Source: Pseudoxanthomonas winnipegensis
GTDB taxonomy: Bacteria > Pseudomonadota > Gammaproteobacteria > Xanthomonadales > Xanthomonadaceae
Reading direction: 5' to 3'
DNA: 64,000 bases
Assembly (NCBI RefSeq): GCF_004283755.1
Contig: NZ_SHMH01000010.1
Coordinates: 62,001-126,000 of the forward strand
Positions 53,152 through 64,000 of the stretch are shown here, in pieces. Each line of letters begins with the position of its first letter. Positions within the stretch are counted from its first letter, which is position 1. The position numbers were made by a program, and so were the translations under genes. The notes under the pieces were generated by a model that did not search any database, was not told the DNA's origin, and worked only from the letters and a program-made list of their open reading frames with translations.

Positions 53152-53661
53152 ATGAACTCCACACCGCCACGTTCCCACTTCACGATCGGCGTGCTGGCCC
53201 AGCAGTCCGGGGTGGCGATCGACACGATCCGCTACTACGAGCGCGAGGGGCTGCTCTCGCCCGCCTATCGCCGCGCCTCGGGCTATCGCGAATACGACAC
53301 GCAGTCGGTCGAGCGCATGCGCTTCATCCTGCGCGCCAAGGAGCTGGGCTTCAGCCTGGAGGAGATCCGCGAGCTGCTGGCGCTGGAATCCGATCGGGTC
53401 AACGGCGTGGAAGGCGTCAAGCAGCGCGCCAGCCGGCGCCTGCAGGAGTTGAACGTGCGCATCGCCCAGCTCACCGAGATGCGCGACGCCCTGGCGCGGC
53501 TGATCGACGCCTGCCCCGGCTGCGGCGAGCCGGAAGGCTGCCCGATCCTCTCCAGCATCCACGGCGCGCCGCCCGAGGCGAACGACGCGGCGGCCGCGCC
53601 TTCGCCCGCGCCGGCCTCGTGCTGCGGCGCGGATCTCAAAGACAGGAACCACGATTCATGA
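53152..53661 (+). CDS. MerR-family metal-responsive regulator (CueR-like)
   Basis: The 169-residue regulator opens with a MerR winged-helix (FTIGVLAQQSGVAIDTIRYY) followed by SGYREYDTQSVERMRFILRA and a dimerisation helix. The metal-binding loop near the C-terminus is CPGCGEPEGCPIL with Cys121, Cys124 and Cys130; a CPG...CPI layout like this is also seen in CueR. There is no Cys at the position of ZntR Cys79, so a monovalent metal such as Cu(I) is the more likely inducer. A further CC (ASCCGADLKD) and His-containing tail is present. It probably activates its own promoter and the downstream ATPase gene. Its TGA overlaps the ATPase ATG (53658-53661). Confidence 0.88.
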   Translation: MNSTPPRSHFTIGVLAQQSGVAIDTIRYYEREGLLSPAYRRASGYREYDTQSVERMRFILRAKELGFSLEEIRELLALESDRVNGVEGVKQRASRRLQELNVRIAQLTEMRDALARLIDACPGCGEPEGCPILSSIHGAPPEANDAAAAPSPAPASCCGADLKDRNHDS

Positions 53662-56090
53662 CTCAGGCGGCAGCCACCACGTTGAACTTCCCGGTCCGCG
53701 GCATGACCTGCGCGGCGTGCGCGACCACGATCGAGAAGCTGCTCAACAAGCATCCGGGCGTCAAGGCGACGGTCAACTTCGCCAGCGAACGCGTGCAGCT
53801 GCAGTACGACCGCACCCAGGTCCAGCCGCAGGCCCTGGTGGAGACGCTGGACAAGGCCGGCTTCTCGGTGCCGCCGGAGACCGTGGCGCTGGAGATCACC
53901 GGCATGAGCTGCGCCGCCTGCGCGGCCGGCATCGAAGGCGTGCTGGCCAAGACGCCCGGCGTGATCGCCGGCAACGTCAACTTCGCCTCGGCCAAGGCGC
54001 GGGTGGAATACACCCCGGGCGTGGTCGACGTGGCGCAGATCGTCGAGCGCATCGGCAAGGCCGGCTTCGGCGCGAGCGAGGTGCGCGAGATCGGCGAGGC
54101 CGAGATGGCTGCGCGCGAGGCCGGCGAACGCGCGGCCTGGCGCCGCCAGGTCTGGATGTTCGTGGCCTCGGTGGTGCTGACCCTGCCGCTGTTCGCGCAG
54201 ATGTTCACCATGTTCGACTTCGCCGACCTGGGCCACGCGCTGGGCGGCCACCACACCGAACTGCTGCCGCGCTGGCTGCAGCTGGTGCTGGCCACGCCGG
54301 TGCAGTTCTGGATCGGCGCGCGCTTCTACAAGGCGGCCTTCAAGTCGCTGCGCAGCGGCACGGCCAACATGGACGTGCTCGTGGCGCTGGGCACCTCCAT
54401 GGCCTATCTGTACAGCGTGGTGGTGACGGTGCTGGATCTGCCGGGCCAGCATGTGTACTTCGAGGCCAGCGCCTCGATCATCACCCTGATCCTGCTCGGA
54501 CGCCTGCTGGAGGCGCGCGCCAAGCGCAAGACCTCCTCGGCGATCCGCGCGCTGCTCAACCTCAAGCCCAAGACCGCCAAGGTCGAACGCGACGGCAAGC
54601 TGGTCGAGGTCGATGCCGGCAGCCTGGTGGTGGGCGATGTGTTCGTGGTCGCCGCGGGCGAAAGCGTGCCGGTGGACGGCGAAGTGCTCAGCGGCACCTC
54701 CAGCGTGGACGAGGCGATGCTCTCGGGCGAGTCGATGCCGGTGAACAAGGAACCCGGCAGCCGGCTGTTCGCCGCCACGGTCAACCAGTACGGCATGCTG
54801 CGCGCGCGCGCCACCGGCATCGGCGCCGACACCATGCTGGCCCAGATCATCCGCATGGTCGACGAGGCGCAGGGCTCCAAGGCGCCGATCCAGCACCTGG
54901 TCGACCGGATCGCCGGCATCTTCGTGCCCGTCGTCGTGGCCATCGCCGCGCTGACCCTGGCCATCACCTGGATGGTGACCGGCAGCTTCTCCGTCGCGCT
55001 GGTGCACGCGGTCGCGGTGCTGGTGATCGCCTGTCCGTGCTCGCTGGGCCTGGCCACGCCGACGGCGATCATGGTCGGCACCGGCATGGGCGCGCGCGCC
55101 GGCATCCTGATCCGCAACGCCGAGGTGCTCGAACGCGCCCGCGCGCTCAAGACCCTGGTGGTCGACAAGACCGGCACCCTGACCGAAGGCAAGCCGCAGG
55201 TGACCGACCTGCTGCCCAGCGCGGAGACCGAACGCGACGCGCTGCTGCGGCTGGCGGCCAGCCTGGAGGCCGGCTCGGAGCATCCGCTGGCCAGGGCGAT
55301 CATGCAGGCCGCCGAGGCGGCCGGCGTGCAGGCGGCGGGCGTGACCGACTTCGAGACGATCCCGGGCAAGGGCGTGCGCGGCGTGATCGACGGGCGCCAG
55401 GCGATCCTGGGCTCGCCGGCCTGGCTGGCGGCCGAGCAGGCCCGCACCAGCACCGCGCTGGAAGCCCGCGCCCAGGCCGTGCAGGCCCAGGGCAAGACCG
55501 TGGTCGGCGTCGCGGTGGACGGCGTGACCGCCGGCTTCATCGCCATCGCCGACCAGCTGCGCGACACCTCGCGCGAGGCCGTGCGCCGGCTGCAGGCCAT
55601 GGGCGTGGACGTGGTGATGATGACCGGCGACAACCGCCACACCGCCGAGGCGATCGCGCGCCAGGCCGGGATCACGCGCTACTTCGCCGAAGTCCTGCCG
55701 CAGCACAAGGCCGATGAGGTCAAGCGCCTGCAGCAGGCGCAGGGCGGGCACGTGGGCATGGTCGGCGACGGCATCAACGACGCGCCGGCGCTGGCCGCGG
55801 CCGATGTGAGCCTGGCCATCGGCGCCGGCTCGGACATCGCCATCGAGGCGGCCGACGTGGTGCTGGTCAAGGGCGACCTGCGCCATGTGGCCACCGCCAT
55901 CGACCTGTCCAGCGCCACGCTGCGCAAGATCCGCCAGAACCTGTTCTTCGCCTTCTTCTACAACGTGCTCGGCATCCCGCTGGCCGCGTTCGGCCTGCTC
56001 AATCCGGTCATCGCCGGCGCGGCGATGGCGATGAGCTCGATCTCGGTGGTGAGCAACTCGGTGCTGCTCAACCGCTGGCGTCCGAAGTGA
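53658..56090 (+). CDS. Cu(+)-translocating P1B-type ATPase
   Basis: An 810-residue copper exporter. It has two N-terminal heavy-metal-associated domains, GMTCAACATTIEK (Cys18/Cys21) and GMSCAACAAGIEG. Membrane helices follow, then a TGES-like actuator motif (MLSGESMP), the transmembrane Cys-Pro-Cys (Cys459-Pro-Cys461) in CPCSLGLATP, and phosphorylation site Asp503 in VDKTGTLTEG. SEHPLARAI (the HP motif), MTGDNRHTAE and VGDGINDAPALAAADV complete it. The CPC motif and paired HMA domains fit a Cu(I) exporter of the CopA/CopF group. It follows the MerR regulator with a 4-bp overlap and precedes a CopZ-like protein by 61 bp, a compact copper-efflux operon. No symbol is given, to avoid confusion with the multicopper oxidase. 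Confidence 0.96.
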   Translation: MTQAAATTLNFPVRGMTCAACATTIEKLLNKHPGVKATVNFASERVQLQYDRTQVQPQALVETLDKAGFSVPPETVALEITGMSCAACAAGIEGVLAKTPGVIAGNVNFASAKARVEYTPGVVDVAQIVERIGKAGFGASEVREIGEAEMAAREAGERAAWRRQVWMFVASVVLTLPLFAQMFTMFDFADLGHALGGHHTELLPRWLQLVLATPVQFWIGARFYKAAFKSLRSGTANMDVLVALGTSMAYLYSVVVTVLDLPGQHVYFEASASIITLILLGRLLEARAKRKTSSAIRALLNLKPKTAKVERDGKLVEVDAGSLVVGDVFVVAAGESVPVDGEVLSGTSSVDEAMLSGESMPVNKEPGSRLFAATVNQYGMLRARATGIGADTMLAQIIRMVDEAQGSKAPIQHLVDRIAGIFVPVVVAIAALTLAITWMVTGSFSVALVHAVAVLVIACPCSLGLATPTAIMVGTGMGARAGILIRNAEVLERARALKTLVVDKTGTLTEGKPQVTDLLPSAETERDALLRLAASLEAGSEHPLARAIMQAAEAAGVQAAGVTDFETIPGKGVRGVIDGRQAILGSPAWLAAEQARTSTALEARAQAVQAQGKTVVGVAVDGVTAGFIAIADQLRDTSREAVRRLQAMGVDVVMMTGDNRHTAEAIARQAGITRYFAEVLPQHKADEVKRLQQAQGGHVGMVGDGINDAPALAAADVSLAIGAGSDIAIEAADVVLVKGDLRHVATAIDLSSATLRKIRQNLFFAFFYNVLGIPLAAFGLLNPVIAGAAMAMSSISVVSNSVLLNRWRPK

Positions 56091-56151: not shown

Positions 56152-56361
56152 ATGCATATCGAACTGACCGTAGACGGCATGAAGTGCGGAGGCTGCTCCG
56201 GCCGCCTCAAGCGCGTGCTGGAAGGCACCGACGGCGTGCAGGCCACGCAGATCGTGCTGGAGACCAAGCAGGTCGCCGTCGATTTCGACGAGGCCGGCAT
56301 CGACGTGGAGGCGATCAAGCATGTGATCACCGACGCCGGCTTCACCGTGCTGGCCGCCTGA
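56152..56361 (+). CDS. CopZ-like heavy-metal-associated protein
   Basis: A 69-residue single HMA domain: MHIELTVDGMKCGGCSGRLK (metal-binding Cys12 and Cys15), then FDEAGIDVEAIKHVITDAGF near the end. It lies 61 bp downstream of the Cu(I) ATPase, so it most likely delivers Cu(I) to that pump or to the regulator. Length is normal for a stand-alone metallochaperone. Confidence 0.92.
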   Translation: MHIELTVDGMKCGGCSGRLKRVLEGTDGVQATQIVLETKQVAVDFDEAGIDVEAIKHVITDAGFTVLAA

Positions 56362-56655
56362 GGCATGACCGGCCTGCGCCTGGCGGAATGACGGCGCGCC
56401 TACGGCCCGCGTTCGACGCGTGCCGCAGGCGCCCGGCCAACCGCCAGCACGCACAGGCCACCGACGCTGCAGCGGGGGGACGCCGCAGCGGAGGATGAAG
56501 GACAGGGACCGGACCGGCGGAGGGGCCGTCCGAGGAGAAGGGGAACGCTTTCGCAGACGCCCGTTGTGCTGGCCGCCGTCCAGGCGGCCCGTGGCGCGGC
56601 GCGCTGCCACCTGGGGCCATCGCGCTCTGCCCGCCGCCGTTGCCACGGAGCCTCG

Positions 56656-57678
56656 ATGAACGACACCGACCACGACGAAAGGCACCTGCCGAAGGTCCCG
56701 GCGCGTCAGCTCTGGCGCCTGCTGGGCGGCTACTGGCGCTCGGACGACCGGCTCATGGCCTGGCTCCTGCTGCTGTCCATCCCCGCGCTGCACGGGGTGA
56801 TGGTCTACCAGGGCCTGCTGCAGAACCGCATCTACGGGGTGATGTTCGATGCGCTGGGCGATCGCCAGGCCAGCGTGTTCTGGCGGCAGCTGATCCTCAC
56901 CGGCGCCGTCATGGCCACCTGGGTGCTGGCCCATACCGTGGTGGAGTGGCTGATGCAGCTGCTCTACATGCGCTGGCGCACCTGGCTCAACGCGTACTTC
57001 TCCGACCGCTGGCTGGCGCGCAAGGCCTATTACCGGATGGACCGCGCCGGCAGCATCGACAACCCGGACCAGCGCCTGTCCGAGGACCTGCAGATCCTGA
57101 CCGAGAAGGGCGTGACCAAGGGCTTCGAGTTCCTGCACCAGATGGGCGTGGTGGTGGTCTTCACCGGCGTGCTGTGGAACCTCTCGCGCGATATCGCCTT
57201 CACCGTCGCCGGGCAGCAGGTGGCCATTCCCGGGCTGGTGGTCTTCGTGTTCCTGGGCTTCTGCCTGCTCAGCACCGGCCTGGTGGAATGGCTGGGGCGG
57301 CCGCTGCTGCGCGCCCGCTATCGCCAGCAGGCGCGCGAGGGCGACTACCGCTTCGCCCTGGTGCGCGTGCGCGAGAACGCCGAGCCCATCGCGCTCTACG
57401 CGGGCGAGGCGTCCGAGCGTCGCCGCCTGGGCGGTGCCTTCGGCCGCATCCGCCAGAACTGGCGCAAGGTGGTGCGCCATACCTTCAGCGTCAATCTGGC
57501 CACCGATACCGGCAACCAGGGCGTGCAGCTGCTGCCGTGGGTGCTCGGCGCCGGCGCGTACTTCGCCGGCGGCCTCTCGCTCGGCCAGCTGACGCGGCTG
57601 CACCACCGAGCAACAGCAGTGGCAAGATTGGATGACAAGAGGGTAGCAAGCCAGATTTCAGAGCCTTCTTTGGGGTAG
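56656..57678 (+). pseudogene. SbmA/BacA-like ABC transporter, truncated at an island junction
   Basis: The frame starts at 56656 (MNDTDHDERHLPKVPARQLW). It encodes the transmembrane domain of a fused permease-ATPase of the SbmA/BacA (YddA) family, with AWLLLLSIPALHGVMVYQGL, YMRWRTWLNAYFSDRWLARK, YYRMDRAGSIDNPDQRLSED and YRFALVRVRENAEPIALYAG. The family-like sequence ends at about residue 315 (SLGQLT, near 57598). The last ~25 residues (RLHHRATAVARLDDKRVASQ) are fusion sequence read from the antisense strand of the adjacent gene. The ATP-binding domain is missing, so the gene is very likely non-functional. The break coincides with the G+C drop at about 57.6 kb. Confidence 0.8.
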
Positions 57679-57929
57679 ACCTGGCTTCGGCCAGCTGTCG
57701 GAATGACTCCCAAAGGCACGATGTAGGGAACCAAGCGACTTGAGCGAAGCATGTAGCTGAAGCCGGGCCTGAAGTACATTGACTCAGACATTACGTACTT
57801 TGACGCGGAGTGGCCATTTCCAACGTGATAGGCCTTTATCTCGGCTCCATCATCAGACCAGTTTACATATAGGTGTATTGAGGAGAGGACTGGTGACGCT
57901 GATTCAGTTTTCGAATACCACGCCCACAT
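57605..57929 (-). pseudogene. Out-of-frame C-terminal remnant of the adenine methyltransferase
   Basis: A reading frame just beyond the stop of the methyltransferase gene, shifted by one base, encodes MWAWYSKTESASPVLSSIHL and YVNWSDDGAEIKAYHV, and then SMYFRPGFSYMLRSSRLVPY and VYPKEGSEIWLATLL. This resembles the conserved tail of PglX/Eco57I-type methylases (xVNWxxDGxEIKxY ... YFRPGxSxxxRS). Restoring one A in the AAAA run at 57935-57938 joins it to the upstream frame as ELRKRKMWAWY. The homology ends close to 57605, where the host SbmA-like gene begins on the other strand. Confidence 0.75.
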
Positions 57930-60190
57930 CTTCCTTTTCTCAACTCAATGGACTGCTTTCGAAGTTCTTCTACATCATGCTTTTTAGTAGGAATAATGAC
58001 TTGGCCATCACTCACCTCCCACCAAAGCCTCAGGAATCTGAAATCATCTCCAGTCTGTAACCCAACCCGAATAGAGCATTCCAACGGCTCAACTACGGGG
58101 CGCGCCGCGATTTTTCTTGCTATCGAGTCATTGATCCAATACACGTACGGCATGTCATCAAATACAGAAAACTGTTCGACTCGCCTCCTGAAAAAATTGC
58201 CTCCGTCGCGCCCGCTCTTCAGCAAGTGAATTGATTCGAGTAAACCGCTGTTCTTGTCGATCCTATTGAGCTCCCGGAAAAAGATGGCTTCATCTGCCTT
58301 CCCGTGACTCCTCTCCCAAGTAACAGCCGCCGTTTCGACCATCGCATCAAGAACCCCTTGTCCAAGATCAACAAAGGTCTCCATTGCAAGATCCTCAGCC
58401 AGTACCGACTTGCGAAATGCTGAGAAGCTTTGCAGGTAAAAACATGTGCGACTGACGATCGCTCCAACACGCCCACCCAAGCGAACCAATTGGGTTGCTC
58501 GCTCGATAAACTGCGTGAGGATATTTCCTTTGGATCGTGGCAACGTCTCTTCGAGGTAGGATTTTGTCGAGCGTGCAGGCTCGCCAAACGGTGGATTCAT
58601 TACCAAGACATCGAATCGCTCGCGCGCGAGATCAATCAGGCGGAGTCCATCCAAAGCATCCTGGGCAAACAGCCGCGCTTGATATGTCGATTTCGCTGCA
58701 TGAGAGAAATCAAGAAGTGCCTCCCGCAATCTAGTTTCAGCTTGCTGCCAAGTCTCTTGTTCTTGTTCGGCAAATAGCCCGGTGCCTTTCCCTACATAAA
58801 TCTCTCTCGTTAACCTCGGGAGGTCTTTCTCTGCTTGAAGAAGAACGCCCAACTCCGGGAGCCCCTTGAGCAGTTGCAGGGTCTTCTCGAACAGCTCGGC
58901 ATCGCGCTTATCGAGGTTGGCCGCAAACTGCTGGCGCAACTCGCGTTCGGCAGGCGGCGCAATGGCGGCGACCACATGACCGCGACCAATCAGGGGGCGG
59001 TCTTTGGCTTTCACCCCCGCGTCGTGCCAAGCGCGCTGCGCCCGCAGCCACAGCGCCAGCGAGGCGATCTGCGCGGCACGCGGGTCGATGTCCACACCGT
59101 AGATGTTGTGCTCGATGATCAGGCGCGGAACGTCGCGCAGAAATGCCGCCTCGCCCTCGTAGGTCTGGCTCAGTGGTTTCAGAGCGGCTTGGGGCTGAGT
59201 CGAGACATCCAACGAGCCGGGGCCGTGCTGTTGTTCCCAAGCCCATGCCTCACGGTATATCTCGGTGAAAAGATCGAAGGCGTATAGGCCAAAGTGCATG
59301 GAGCCGCAGGCCGGATCCAGCAGCTTGAGGGTGCGCGGGTCACGCAGCTTGGTGGCGGCTTGTGGCGTTTCGTCCGGTTTCACCAGCAAGTATTGGCAGC
59401 GATCGCGCAGGCCGGTGGCCCCGCCCGTGGCGTTGAACCAGAGACGCCCGAGGGTGTTGTCCACCAGAAACTCGACCACATAGCGCGGCGTGAAGAACTG
59501 GTTGCGTACCGCCAGTTCTCGGCTGTTGCGCGGTGCCTGACTGGCATCGCGCATCGCCTTGCGCTCTTCCTTCGAGTTGAAATACTGGTAGATCCAGCCG
59601 ATGGTTTCGTCCTCGCTCCACAGCGGGGCGATGTCGGCATCGTTGATCAGGGTCAGTACTTGCAGCAGTGCAGCCTCGCGCGGGAACAGGCGGCCCTGCG
59701 GTGAGTAGCGGTCGAACAGGCCGGGCAAGTCTTGCGCGAGTTCATCGAACACGCTGAACAAATACACGCGGTAGGCATCGCCGGTTTCGCCCAGGCCGGT
59801 GCCGGCCAGGCGCGCGTAGAGCTGAAAGCCCTTGGCCTGGAAGCCGTTGCCAACTGATTCGACCAACAGGCCACGCGCTTCCGCCATACGCAGCGCCGCC
59901 AGTCGGTTGAGCACGGTGAAGGCCTGCTCACGCACGATGCGATCCAGACCCTGCATGGCGTTCATATCACCACTAGCGGTGTAGTGCGCCAGGGTATCGC
60001 GCAGGATGCGGGCGGTTTCGCGCTGGGCGTCGTTGATATGGCGCAGACTGGCAAGCTCGGCGACAGATCCCGCATTCGGGTCCATGCCGTAGTCGTTCTG
60101 CAGCTGGCGGGTGAACTCCTCTTCCAGCACACGGCGCGCGTCGTTGACGAAGCGCTGCAGGCGGTTTCTTGTTGTTTGGTCGAAAGCCAT
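57863..60190 (-). CDS. N6-adenine DNA methyltransferase (PglX/Eco57I-like), frameshifted
   Basis: The 775-residue frame contains a Class I DNA methyltransferase: a helical N-terminal region (LQRFVNDARRVLEEEFTRQL), the FTPRYVVEFLVDNTLGRLWF segment, motif I with LDPACGSMHFGLYAFDLF (Asp292), IYGVDIDPRAAQIASLALWL and the catalytic N-P-P-F at Asn532 in VLVMNPPFGEPA. FKSxLxEDLAMETFVDL-like sequence follows. These fit adenine-N6 methylases of PglX/type IIG-like systems. The last ~35 residues (after QSIELRKGR) are out of frame; the original tail continues in another frame (57605-57929) and is then lost at the junction. The 3' third is less G+C-rich than the 5' part, so it may be mosaic. The frame is probably non-functional as written, unless -1 frameshifting restores the tail. 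Confidence 0.83.
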   Translation of the reverse strand: MAFDQTTRNRLQRFVNDARRVLEEEFTRQLQNDYGMDPNAGSVAELASLRHINDAQRETARILRDTLAHYTASGDMNAMQGLDRIVREQAFTVLNRLAALRMAEARGLLVESVGNGFQAKGFQLYARLAGTGLGETGDAYRVYLFSVFDELAQDLPGLFDRYSPQGRLFPREAALLQVLTLINDADIAPLWSEDETIGWIYQYFNSKEERKAMRDASQAPRNSRELAVRNQFFTPRYVVEFLVDNTLGRLWFNATGGATGLRDRCQYLLVKPDETPQAATKLRDPRTLKLLDPACGSMHFGLYAFDLFTEIYREAWAWEQQHGPGSLDVSTQPQAALKPLSQTYEGEAAFLRDVPRLIIEHNIYGVDIDPRAAQIASLALWLRAQRAWHDAGVKAKDRPLIGRGHVVAAIAPPAERELRQQFAANLDKRDAELFEKTLQLLKGLPELGVLLQAEKDLPRLTREIYVGKGTGLFAEQEQETWQQAETRLREALLDFSHAAKSTYQARLFAQDALDGLRLIDLARERFDVLVMNPPFGEPARSTKSYLEETLPRSKGNILTQFIERATQLVRLGGRVGAIVSRTCFYLQSFSAFRKSVLAEDLAMETFVDLGQGVLDAMVETAAVTWERSHGKADEAIFFRELNRIDKNSGLLESIHLLKSGRDGGNFFRRRVEQFSVFDDMPYVYWINDSIARKIAARPVVEPLECSIRVGLQTGDDFRFLRLWWEVSDGQVIIPTKKHDVEELRKQSIELRKGRCGRGIRKLNQRHQSSPQYTYM

Positions 60191-60203
60191 GTTTGCCTAT
60201 CTC

Positions 60204-61643
60204 TTAGAAGTCAGCAGAGAGCTGCTGGTCTTCTTGTTCAATGAATTTCACGGCACGCCAGCCGGTCTTGCCTTGCTTGTTGGTGCGCCGGATGGCCTGG
60301 CAGGTGACGTCGTATTGCGTTCCAGGAGTGAAGGCCTCGGCCATCTCTGGCGCGACGAAGATGTCATCTCGACTGGTACGGATGAATGCAAATGTCTTAC
60401 CCTCCTGCCTATCCAAGGTGCCGCTAAATATTTCGCACAGGCCAGGAATGGTTTGAACTTCTGACATTCGCCAATCCAGAGGGTGGCCATCAGACTCGGC
60501 GCGGCCAATCTCCACCACGGTACCGGGCAACAAGCCTGCCACCGTGGGAAATTTTTTATGCAATAGCCCGATGCCGGTAGTGGCGCCGGTCGCTATATAG
60601 CTGAGTCCCTTTTCTGAATTGATGTGGTCAATGACGCCGCGAGTGTAGGTAAGGTTTTGTCGCTCCAGTTGTTGAAGCAATGCACGTGCACTGGACTCAG
60701 CTTTCGGCAGCGGCTGTAGAGAGTTATTGGCGAGTGCGTCTTGATACCAGTCACTGGCAAGCAGTTGATGTAGTTCCTGCGGCACTTTGTAGGCGTGCTG
60801 CTCCCTGTACTGCAGTGCCAGGTTCGCCTGGTGTGCTGCCTCGTTGAAACGGCCCACAAGGGCGAGGCGCTGTGCCAAATGGATACGCACCTTTGCGACT
60901 TCCTGCTCCTCCCGAGCCAGCTGAGTTGCATGGGTATAACAGGTCAACGCATCCTGTGGATGCTCAATTTCCAGGATTTCACCTAGTAGCACCCATGGCC
61001 AAGCCGCGCGCGACTGGCGGCGCAACACTGGCGTCAATCGCTTGATCGCAAAGTCTGGTTCGCCGTTGGCCAGGTGCAGTTTGCTCTGGTAGTAGTTGAG
61101 CCATTGGTCGTTTGGCTCGTCCCTTAGCGCTTGCTCCAAAACGCCAAGGCCCCACTCGTTTAGCGCCTGATCCGACTGTGGATCGACGGCTTTAGCCGCT
61201 GTCTCACGACAGACGGCACGTATGAAGCGTTTATGCAAACTATCTACAGTCTTTCCTGCCTCATTGACGAAAGGCTTCTTGTCCTCCTCTGAAAAACTCT
61301 CGTTTCCCACCCAGCGGGCAAAAAGAAGAAACTCAGACCAATCCTTGGATGCCTTCCCCGCAAGGCGAAGAAATTGTGAAAAAGCACTATCGCCACGCAG
61401 TGCGTCAGCCATGTGCGAGAACTCGCGCATGTACGGTGACAGTTGGCCAGATAACGCCGCAGGAGACAGCTGCTTTGTCTCGTAACGATCGACGATTTCT
61501 TTTACATGGTCATACAGCGCCCATGCGTAGGCTCGAAGAAACCATACGTCAGCATTGTTTTGGGGGTACTCCGACCTGGCCAAATCCAGGGCTTCTGCAT
61601 GCCGTTTTTGCTTGCGAAGTGCAAAGATTTCACCGGAGCTCAC
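60204..61643 (-). CDS. TPR protein with two C-terminal cold-shock-like OB domains
   Basis: The 479-residue protein starts with GTG at 61643 (MSSGEIFALRKQKRHAEALD), overlapping the helicase stop by four bases (GTGA). Residues 1-320 are helical, with TPR-like pairs (GLGVLEQALRDEPNDQWLNY; RAAWPWVLLGEILEIEHPQD; QLAREEQEVAKVRIHLAQRL). The last ~150 residues look like two small OB/cold-shock modules: GVIDHINSEKGLSYIATGAT...LHKKFPTVAGLLPGTVVEIG, and GKTFAFIRTSRDDIFVAPEM...GTQYDVTCQAIRRTNKQGKT. The second closely parallels the CSD pattern with G-F-I and D-I-F-V. Such a TPR-OB protein would bind nucleic acid and partner proteins. The family name is unknown to me; the domain calls are inferences from pattern. 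Confidence 0.7.
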   Translation of the reverse strand: MSSGEIFALRKQKRHAEALDLARSEYPQNNADVWFLRAYAWALYDHVKEIVDRYETKQLSPAALSGQLSPYMREFSHMADALRGDSAFSQFLRLAGKASKDWSEFLLFARWVGNESFSEEDKKPFVNEAGKTVDSLHKRFIRAVCRETAAKAVDPQSDQALNEWGLGVLEQALRDEPNDQWLNYYQSKLHLANGEPDFAIKRLTPVLRRQSRAAWPWVLLGEILEIEHPQDALTCYTHATQLAREEQEVAKVRIHLAQRLALVGRFNEAAHQANLALQYREQHAYKVPQELHQLLASDWYQDALANNSLQPLPKAESSARALLQQLERQNLTYTRGVIDHINSEKGLSYIATGATTGIGLLHKKFPTVAGLLPGTVVEIGRAESDGHPLDWRMSEVQTIPGLCEIFSGTLDRQEGKTFAFIRTSRDDIFVAPEMAEAFTPGTQYDVTCQAIRRTNKQGKTGWRAVKFIEQEDQQLSADF

Positions 61644-63742
61644 TGGATTTCCTCTTTTTGCGCCGTCATCAAGCGCTGTACTTCCTCATAGAGGCCGTGG
61701 CTACTGCCTGGGCCGCCGACTTCCTGAGCAGCCGTCCAAGTAAAGGCGCCGTCGTAAGTGAAATCAATCTCACCTTTGCGACAAGCATCAGCAAAGCTCA
61801 ATCGCAGCCGATACGGCATCGACTTTTGACCGATACGTTGAATTCCCGATTCGGCAATAGCTTTATCCAGACCATCCAGAAACTCTTGTATGAACTGGCT
61901 TGGCTGCTCCGTGCTGGATTTGGCAGCCAGCACACCAAGCGATGTGAGCGCATCCTCTGCCAATTGACTATCTGATAAGGCGCCAGGAACAGATCCAGAG
62001 CGACCGACCTGTAATTTGCCATTGTAGTAATACTGAACTACGGCGCGTTTGCCATTGCGCGAAAGGGTGTAGCGCTCGCAATACTGCAAGTGCTGCAACT
62101 GTTCAATTTCGATGCCTTGAGCCCCCCACACCAGGCGTAACTGCTGATGGGTTTTCATCAAGGGGGCAATAGCGGGTGTGAACGAAAGCCTCTGCCAGTC
62201 TGGATCAGTCATGAGCTCCTGAAGTCCAGCCTTTTCAGGTTTTTCAGACGCGCCTGATGAGCCAGTCCAGGCGATGTCACCGGTGGGTGTGAAGTCAGGG
62301 GGATTCACGATGATCAGTTTCTTGGCTGCTCGCGTGATGGCCGTATAAGCCCAACGGAAGAACGATGCATTGCGAGAGCCCCTCCCGGACCCGAAGTCAA
62401 CAAGGACAGTATTCCATTCCCCGCCCTGCGCCTTGTGACAGGTCATGGCATAGCCGTACTTGACCTGGAGCGCGTTGAAGTACGGGTCGTCACGGATAAC
62501 TTTCCGGAATTCAGCCGACTTTGGATGCAGGTCAGGGTGGCGCTTTCGAAAATCTACCAAAAGCGCCCGCTGCTCCAACGGGGTCAATTCACGGTTAGGC
62601 GAATCTAGCAAGTTCTCTAGTACTAGGCAGTTTGTCTGGATGACGCTGCCATCCGCATCACGAAAAGCAACGGTGATATTGCGGAACCACAACTCAACAT
62701 GGTGGCCTCCCTTGAGATTTACTGGCACACGTTGTGCGTCTGCTCCCACCTCCATGACCTTGACTAGATCGCCATTGCTGAGTTCGTGCGTTGTTGAGTT
62801 TTTGTTTATTAACAGCGTTTCGCCCACCTGGATAGGCAGACTGGCATCGCCCCAACGACGATCTCTGATGTTACGGTTGTAGTCCAGCGCATTGGCGTTA
62901 GAGTGCACGACTGCGACGTTAGAAGTTTTTGTCTGCAACCCTTGAACGACCAGATCGACGGCTCTTTGGGCATCTACCTGTTCAATATCCTGTCCATTGG
63001 GCTGCAGTGAAAATTTATTGAACCGCTCGGCCAGCATCGCGTCGCGCAACTCCGTCGCACGGTCGAGAATGGCACTGCCCTGCGCCTGACGCATGACATT
63101 TTTCAAATCGAACGAATCCACCTTCAACTTGAATTGCTCACTCAGATACGCATCTGACAAGGCCGGTGACGCATTTTCTCCAACCGGAGGTAGCTGCGCA
63201 GGATCGCCGACGAAAAGCAGCTTGGTAAGGTGATCCTTTGTGCGACCTGATCTGTTCATTCGAGCAAAGGTCACGATATCCAGTAGCAATCTGCCGGAAC
63301 CGAACTGCATGAAATCACCGTGATTCTCCTTATCTCCGACCATTGACGATTCGTCGATCACGAACAAGGAAACAACCGACTCATCCTCCTTCAATGGAAA
63401 GATCATCCGCATTCCGGGGTCGTTGGCCGTCTCGGCCCCTTCATTCACCTCCAAATGGGTCAGCGTGTAGATCGCCCGATGGATAGTCAACCCTTCGTAT
63501 CCAGAGTTTCCTGTGATTTGTTTGATCTTATTGCCCAGAATTCGGGCAGCCCTACCTGTCGGCGCCAGGAGACTGCAGGAGAGGTTCATCTCCTCTAGCG
63601 TTTTGACCAGTTTGGCAACAAGTGTGGTCTTACCAGTACCTGCACTGCCACGCAGGACAAAAGCATCTCGAGAGTCATCAAGTAGAAAGGTTTTAATGGC
63701 ATCCAGCGCGGCGGACTGCTCTTCGGTCAGTTGTATTTCCAT
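61640..63742 (-). CDS. RecD/Pif1-like SF1B DNA helicase
   Basis: The 700-residue helicase starts MEIQLTEEQSAALDAIKTFL. Walker A is GSAGTGKTT (residues 32-40), Walker B is FVIDESSMVG, and motif III is FVGDPAQLPPVGE. A UvrD_C_2 motif near the end has YGYAMTCHKAQGGEWNTVLV followed by YTAITRAAKKLIIVNPP. This is the RecD2/Pif1 layout of 5'-3' SF1B helicases. The last ~200 residues (QRLSFTPAIAPLMKTHQQLR onward) match no domain I can name. It is coupled to the TPR gene by a four-base overlap and starts 5 bp after the stop of the gene cut by the window edge. Confidence 0.9.
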   Translation of the reverse strand: MEIQLTEEQSAALDAIKTFLLDDSRDAFVLRGSAGTGKTTLVAKLVKTLEEMNLSCSLLAPTGRAARILGNKIKQITGNSGYEGLTIHRAIYTLTHLEVNEGAETANDPGMRMIFPLKEDESVVSLFVIDESSMVGDKENHGDFMQFGSGRLLLDIVTFARMNRSGRTKDHLTKLLFVGDPAQLPPVGENASPALSDAYLSEQFKLKVDSFDLKNVMRQAQGSAILDRATELRDAMLAERFNKFSLQPNGQDIEQVDAQRAVDLVVQGLQTKTSNVAVVHSNANALDYNRNIRDRRWGDASLPIQVGETLLINKNSTTHELSNGDLVKVMEVGADAQRVPVNLKGGHHVELWFRNITVAFRDADGSVIQTNCLVLENLLDSPNRELTPLEQRALLVDFRKRHPDLHPKSAEFRKVIRDDPYFNALQVKYGYAMTCHKAQGGEWNTVLVDFGSGRGSRNASFFRWAYTAITRAAKKLIIVNPPDFTPTGDIAWTGSSGASEKPEKAGLQELMTDPDWQRLSFTPAIAPLMKTHQQLRLVWGAQGIEIEQLQHLQYCERYTLSRNGKRAVVQYYYNGKLQVGRSGSVPGALSDSQLAEDALTSLGVLAAKSSTEQPSQFIQEFLDGLDKAIAESGIQRIGQKSMPYRLRLSFADACRKGEIDFTYDGAFTWTAAQEVGGPGSSHGLYEEVQRLMTAQKEEIQ

Positions 63743-63747
63743 GCAGC

Positions 63748-64000
63748 TCAGGCGCCCCCAGAATTCATCACAAACTTGATTTCCGCCTCTGTATAGAGGC
63801 CAAGCTGCACCTTGATTTCCTGTAGCTGTAGGATCAACGCCTCAATGTCTGCAGCCGACGTCATCTTCACTGGAATCGCGATCGACTTGATCAGCTTGGC
63901 TGGGCCTTCTTCTCCGTTCTTGGAGCGCTCTTCCTCCATGCGCTGGCGAAGCCGCTCCTGGCCTTGGCGCTGGATGGAGCGCTTTAGGTCTTCGAGGGTG
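63748..64000 (-). CDS. C-terminal part of an unidentified protein (window-edge partial)
   Basis: The frame is open at the window edge (position 64000), so the 5' end of the gene is missing. The visible ~83 residues read TLEDLKRSIQRQGQERLRQR, then EEERSKNGEEGPAKLIKSIA and IPVKMTSAADIEALILQLQE, and end YTEAEIKFVMNSGGA. The tail contains an amphipathic helix (basic, Gln/Arg-rich) and a short alpha/beta segment; I do not recognise a family. It is the first visible gene of the minus-strand operon with helicase, TPR and methyltransferase. It may be an ATPase or effector of the system, but no motif shows this. Confidence 0.55.
   Translation of the reverse strand, partial: TLEDLKRSIQRQGQERLRQRMEEERSKNGEEGPAKLIKSIAIPVKMTSAADIEALILQLQEIKVQLGLYTEAEIKFVMNSGGA

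Follow-up and report, generated by a model that had tools for sequence, protein, structure and literature searches.

The locus considered here raises a simple question: does a compact operon that joins a helicase to a DNA methylase represent one undescribed anti-phage system, or pieces of systems that are already known? It lies on the minus strand at the end of a 64,000-nucleotide stretch of Pseudoxanthomonas winnipegensis DNA (hereafter the window; positions 62001-126000 of a contig of 183,767 bases, NZ_SHMH01000010.1, which continues past the window end), and the original prediction, made from the sequence, had considered the first answer possible. Our analysis favors the second. The operon is a known system, broken, that holds a known but little-studied module as an exchangeable cassette; we are confident that it combines two systems, a damaged type-1-like bacteriophage exclusion (BREX) operon and, at its brxC/pglX junction, a helicase and TPR-OB gene pair of the TOTE type (TPR, OB, TBP, Effector, as spelled out in PMC12458937, which cites a 2022 paper).

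The operon and its damage

Recomputed reading frames and base composition agree with the earlier description of four minus-strand frames with coupled spacings in a low G+C tail. From brxC to pglX the genes are separated by a 5-bp gap, a 4-bp overlap and a 13-bp gap, and the G+C content falls from about 70% in the chromosome to 53-60% in the island, with the change near 57600. The first frame (63748..64000, minus strand) had been listed as an unknown protein. It is cut, being open at the window edge, and consists of the last 83 codons of BrxC (PADLOC BrxC, E 4.1e-20 for the piece). Extending the sequence beyond 64 kb, as had been advised, recovered the whole brxC of 1209 amino acids (L002:7748-11377, PADLOC BrxC 2189 bits; L002 coordinates are window coordinates minus 56000) and, upstream on the same strand, genes for BrxB (384 amino acids), BrxA (448 amino acids), a BrxE-family protein (NCBIfam 174 bits, cut-off 40) and a WYL regulator. 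The methylase at the other end is PglX (PADLOC PglX 1039 bits; NCBIfam BREX_1_MTaseX 517.8 bits, cut-off 500), with a Pfam Eco57I match as well, and brxA, brxB, brxC and pglX thus sit together in one operon, as in BREX type 1.

The methylase had been suspected of being damaged, and it is so in two ways, by a frame change and by a break. The N-terminal part, which includes the methylase domain (57863..60190, minus strand, 775 amino acids; PADLOC, NCBIfam and Pfam Eco57I), follows the PglX profile to position 761 of 1332, after which the match resumes in another frame at position 763 and stops at 875 (57606..57932, minus strand). The frame change is placed between about 57998 and 57932, a call supported by the 35% identity of the other-frame piece to residues 735-816 of the PglX of a related locus, L133. 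The remainder breaks off at about 57605, at the junction (57600..57610) where an SbmA/ABC_membrane_2-type transporter frame starts. Among related loci PglX is encoded in two pieces, parted near residue 628, in L006, L007, L136 and L140 (a methylase part of 630 amino acids followed by one of 633-642) and forms a single chain in L133 and L141; the window copy reads through this point in one frame.

The two genes that complete the operon in relatives L006, L136, L140 and L141, pglZ and brxL, gave no profile match anywhere in the genome in a whole-genome search, and no second pglX match was found elsewhere in it. The window BREX is a type-1-like remnant on a genomic island, and since pglZ and brxL have no match, this copy should be dead. 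We consider it very improbable that the break and the frame change are draft-assembly errors in a strain that has a whole BREX. The assembly is a draft in 19 contigs and both faults do fall within one gene, but the genome lacking pglZ, brxL and any further pglX match is 99.99% complete, and 7 of 20 relatives have matches to the DNA on the right-hand side of the island, which indicates that the island is not a stray contig.

The two genes enclosed by brxC and pglX are not canonical BREX genes, as had been noted when the operon was first placed near BREX and PglX. The first encodes a RecD/Pif1-like helicase of 700 amino acids (61640..63742, minus strand) matched by Pfam AAA_30, UvrD_C_2 and TBP-TOTE (E 1.7e-36) and by PADLOC PDC-M16A (1102 bits). 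The second encodes the TPR-OB protein of 479 amino acids (60204..61643, minus strand), matched by DUF7017 (E 1.4e-26), S1CSD-TOTE-2 (E 2.4e-18) and PDC-M16B (821 bits). Both proteins match the PDC-M16 profiles over nearly their full length, and the TPR, OB/S1-CSD and TBP-like domains are all present in the pair by Pfam and structure model. What we take to be the Walker motifs of the helicase are kept in nine aligned homologues, apart from a single T to S change in L012. The TPR-OB protein, modeled with AlphaFold from 8 sequences (pLDDT 85.1), is predicted to form a helical solenoid up to about residue 330 and then two small barrels, and its closest solved folds are TPR proteins. The tandem OB domains that had been proposed are therefore backed by Pfam for the second, which S1CSD-TOTE-2 matches, and by the model only for the first. 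The helicase model is poor (pLDDT 63.3) and cannot place the TBP-like domain; its closest folds are DSH9, T4 Dda and RecD2. A search of a viral fold library gave no match at E 0.001 or better, and Pfam found no effector domain on either protein of the window pair.

A variable brxC/pglX junction

Evidence that the pair is a cassette comes from seven loci of the window's BrxC lineage, in which BrxC is 86-99% identical (the window, L006, L007, L133, L136, L140 and L141). L006 and L007 came from a scan with the TPR-OB protein and so carry the pair by selection, while searches with the BrxC profile in 350, 31 and 398 genomes led to L133, to L136, and to L140 and L141, respectively. In the window and in L006 the pair lies between brxC and pglX, occupying 3557 bp in both; in L007 it is accompanied by a UvrD-like gene of 917 amino acids (6250 bp in all); in L133 the UvrD-like gene stands alone (2726 bp); and in L136, L140 and L141 the junction is empty, the pglX ATG following directly after the brxC stop. 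The brxC/pglX junction of this BREX lineage is variable, holding the pair, a UvrD-like gene, both or nothing. The bare operon is seen in L141 (WYL regulator, brxE, brxA, brxB, brxC, pglX, pglZ, brxL), and L006 has the same order with the helicase and TPR-OB genes after brxC, a split pglX and a DUF262-type gene before pglZ. TOTE thus seems to behave in BREX as a cassette that can be exchanged.

The sequences flanking the junction are in line with such exchange. When the brxC end of the window was compared with those of L140 and L141 in 60-base bins, identity was 82-95%, dropping in the last three bins to 68, 78 and 57% for L140 and to 77, 75 and 55% for L141. Over the same bins L140 and L141 are 80-90% identical to each other and the window and L006 87-100%, and over the opening 60 bases of pglX all three empty alleles are 95-97% identical to the window. 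The dip over the last 180 bases or so of brxC and the recovery at the start of pglX indicate that the guest brings its own brxC tail, a pattern that cassette exchange through recombination in the neighboring core genes would leave. Between the window and L006 the synonymous divergence (dS) of brxA, brxB, brxC and the helicase and TPR-OB genes is 0.07-0.18 and that of pglX is 0.75; since this is far above the other five, pglX was exchanged separately. For the helicase and TPR-OB genes dN/dS against L006 is 0.16 and 0.15, respectively.

The UvrD-like alternative guest (L133:8757-11468 and L007:11383-14136, 903-917 amino acids) is 74% identical between the two loci and has only weak PADLOC matches. 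The pglX/pglZ junction is a second variable site, with DUF262-type genes in L006, L007 and L136, PDC-M45-type genes in L133 and L140, and nothing in L141. Another BrxC match, L142, is a divergent BREX that lacks the pair.

The proposal of one undescribed system does not survive these comparisons, as profile searches, the test it had itself put forward, place every gene in known systems, BrxC and PglX in BREX and the other two in TOTE/PDC-M16. A single system of helicase, TPR-OB protein and methylase would account for the adjacency and tight spacing of the three genes in the window and L006. We nevertheless regard it as extremely unlikely, because in L133, L136, L140 and L141 the methylase gene comes after brxC with no pair present, and because, of the 19 other loci with adjacent helicase and TPR-OB genes, 16 have the pair but not the methylase. 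The expected co-conservation was accordingly borne out for the helicase and TPR-OB protein, which are neighbors in 19 of the 20 other loci opened, most of them without BREX, and failed for the trio, as the pair stands with PglX in only three of the 20 (L006, L007 and, at a different junction, L127).

Distribution and forms of the pair

Nine of these 20 loci (L006-L014) were confirmed in the TPR-OB scan of species genomes, and in eight of them the helicase is adjacent; the TPR-OB frame of L013 is broken in two, and L014, where only a piece of the TPR-OB gene is present and no helicase adjoins it, is the sole miss among the 20. The remaining loci are six strong genome-panel matches (L127-L132), three plasmids (L061-L063), the phage record L064 and the viral contig L134. 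L064 (MT835724.1), deposited as an unverified phage of human fecal origin, has the TOTE helicase and TPR-OB genes side by side. Among 72,556 plasmid records the TPR-OB protein matched 52, and the helicase 72 at E 1e-40. In E. coli the long-form pair (described below) was matched in 53 of 5426 genomes, 42 of them over at least 80%, all at 99% or more; on E. coli plasmids the pair is apparently alone. Domain searches gave few strong matches. S1CSD-TOTE-2 matched 149 of 398 genomes of the phylum, 22 above the cut-off, and four strong matches of at least 64 bits were kept (the window's own genome, G119, G162 and G243), the others, at 30 bits or less, being left out as proteins that by frame length are presumably Rho and RNase R/II. 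DUF7017 matched 57 of 369 genomes of the class, 13 above the cut-off; the strong matches, the own genome and G706, were followed, and the others (33 bits or less, or slightly more when joined) were set aside as general TPR proteins. PDC-M16B matched 76 of 398 genomes of the order, three strongly (the own genome, G807 and G955), all of which were followed.

The helicases fall into two forms. Seven long forms of 865-983 amino acids carry an N-terminal domain, which is DUF4145 in six (L062, L063 and L129-L132, of which L130, at 22.5 bits, narrowly misses the 23.1-bit cut-off) and NERD in the seventh, L128. All six DUF4145 long forms have an R-x2-GN-x-AAH stretch, which we take to be the DUF4145 motif. 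DUF4145 has been placed in the HEPN superfamily (PMC3710099). The twelve short forms, of 678-717 amino acids, are those of the window, L006-L013 (a later start being taken for L010), L061, L127 and L134, and in the four scanned with Pfam (window, L061, L127 and L134) no effector domain was found. A BREX context was seen for four of the 12 short forms and none of the seven long forms, counts too small to prove a link, and the sequence around some loci is short (6305 bases for L132 and 10,066 bases for L009).

A further BREX with the pair was found in L127, where it lies between a PglX of 1131 amino acids and PglZ-BrxL, that is, not at the brxC/pglX junction. The BrxC of L127 is 22.6% identical to that of the window over the matched part, and its helicase and TPR-OB protein are 46.6% and 37.4% identical to the window pair, which suggests that L127 represents a second entry of the pair into BREX. 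Directly before the TOTE pair in that operon is a gene for an aspartyl-protease-like protein of 127 amino acids (L127:8213-8596; PADLOC PDC-M08B, Pfam Asp_protease_2).

Neighbors of the pair were chosen for scanning by hand and therefore make up a list, not a rate; among the later-scanned ones, six of ten had no match. In L013 an AAA_5 (McrB-like) gene with McrC, 30 bp before the helicase, and ZorD were found; in L011 a type I methylase and an ATPase with PDC-M55A/AriA-type matches; in L010 Cas1 and Cmr1; in L012 an SNF2 protein and MzaC; in L008 a DEDDh exonuclease; and beside the Rhodothermus pair CRISPR-Cas genes. Genes standing beside two different TOTE pairs, L131:9121-10341 and L134:1230-2999, match the PADLOC candidates PDC-M72A and PDC-M72B.

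A possible role for the pair

The SF1B helicases to which this type belongs translocate 5'->3'. The pair might bind a nucleic-acid structure of an invader, be it duplex, DNA-RNA hybrid or single strand, formed as an intermediate of the invader's replication or transcription, and the helicase would then unwind the bound structure 5'->3' and hand it over to an effector. A TBP-like domain has been reported to bind DNA-RNA hybrids in RNase HIII (PMC3710099). Since long forms carry an N-terminal DUF4145 or NERD and the short form of the window carries none, the short pair may use the effector of a neighbor, which in an intact BREX would be PglZ, for which nuclease activity is reported in type 1 BREX (PMC12839542); this borrowing is a tentative suggestion. 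In the window's genome the pair, itself intact, may act alone or be a relic. Equally speculative is the broader model in which short-form TOTE would be a portable sensor-helicase that plugs into whole defense operons and borrows their effector, with brxC/pglX as a recombination-fed slot for TOTE, UvrD-like or BrxU-type nuclease cassettes, each with a matching BrxC tail.

At least as likely as the borrowed effector, if still somewhat short of an even chance, is that the TOTE pair is a complete stand-alone defense system housed in a BREX operon and sharing only its promoter and regulator. This would explain why the pair is without BREX in most loci opened and apparently alone on E. coli plasmids, and why the window pair is intact though its BREX is broken. 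However, the lone long forms have the N-terminal DUF4145 or NERD domain and the form found in BREX has neither, and filled and empty alleles have different brxC tails, a difference that may reflect adaptation to the guest or only a recombination tract.

Several observations also weigh against our main reading. The pair is present in none of the four same-lineage loci that were found by BrxC, only four of the 12 short forms are in BREX, and no complete known system was seen beside L009 or L134, where few neighbors were scanned. On the BrxC tree 160 of 500 shuffles need as few label changes as observed, leaving repeated capture unproven, and the helicase tree needs three changes, with as few or fewer in 127 of 500 shuffles; that tree has very long branches for L128 and L061, and 205-262 N-terminal residues were trimmed off its seven long-form rows.

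How defense systems combine is an open question, and here one BREX lineage shows the same junction empty, with TOTE, with a helicase-like gene and with both. These alleles are natural pairs for measuring the effect of a guest module on BREX, they tie TOTE, so far mainly a prediction, to the laboratory-tractable BREX, and the variation of the BrxC tail with the guest offers a testable contact point.

Island borders

On the side of the break the transporter frame (56566-57605) also appears cut, as the match to the SbmA_BacA profile ends at position 277 of 315, with no ATPase domain behind it. No comparable DNA copy of this piece was found in 20 relatives, the only matches being of about 60 bases or fewer. 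Before it, P-type ATPase-like and heavy-metal-domain frames were recognized by eye (53619-56090 and 56152-56361). At the other end, beyond the WYL regulator, lie an IS5-family transposase on the opposite strand, a tyrosine integrase and a tRNA-Met gene. The DNA right of the island matches the seven relatives mentioned above at 76-89%, starting at about L002:18084-18178, but this border is not fixed, since the tRNA-Met of those relatives lies elsewhere; no second copy of the tRNA-Met 3' end was present within the 76 kb searched, and so the other border was not located.

Comparison with known systems

Likeness to BREX, DISARM and type IIG systems had been proposed, and by PADLOC scores only the first held. 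DISARM is marked by helicase and DUF1998 proteins, drmA and drmB. Neither the helicase nor the TPR-OB protein had a Drm match, and the methylase scored 126 bits against DrmMI and 1039 against PglX. Type IIG restriction-modification was likewise rejected, at 227 bits versus the 1039 for PglX and in view of the brxC context.

Within BREX, type 6 deserves mention because the original scheme assigns the BrxE-family protein to it, and such a protein is present in this otherwise type-1-like operon. BREX type 6 carries brxD and brxHI, which were not sought by profile in the window's genome. As a firm label type 6 was rejected, as the type-6 BrxE model gave 35.8 bits, below its cut-off of 80, PglX fits the BREX-1 model, and the relative L141 ends in brxC-pglX-pglZ-brxL. 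Like BREX type 1, the locus has a WYL regulator, BrxE, BrxA, BrxB, BrxC and PglX in order, to which relatives add PglZ and BrxL; it differs in the TOTE pair between brxC and pglX, in the cut pglX and in the loss of pglZ and brxL. A 2026 BREX survey describes many auxiliary nucleases (PMC12839542), and the terms TOTE, TPR, TBP and RecD are absent from the main text of that survey.

PDC-M16, a PADLOC candidate entry that is not named in the literature searched, has M16A and M16B adjacent here as in 19 of the 20 other loci, while here its short profile matched inside BREX. TALON, as presented in PMC12458937, has TPR-CSD and TBP parts in common with TOTE, yet its core is a YprA-like helicase plus a NERD nuclease, and the window operon showed neither. 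To TOTE itself the window pair is joined by its TBP-TOTE, DUF7017 and S1CSD-TOTE-2 domains, although it lies inside BREX and no effector domain of its own was found. Finally, brxU of the pEFER BREX locus (PMC8565348), a precedent for a guest at this site, is a DUF262/DUF1524 type IV restriction enzyme rather than a helicase or TPR-OB protein, but it shares the brxC/pglX junction with the TOTE pair and is an extra defense gene that complements BREX there.

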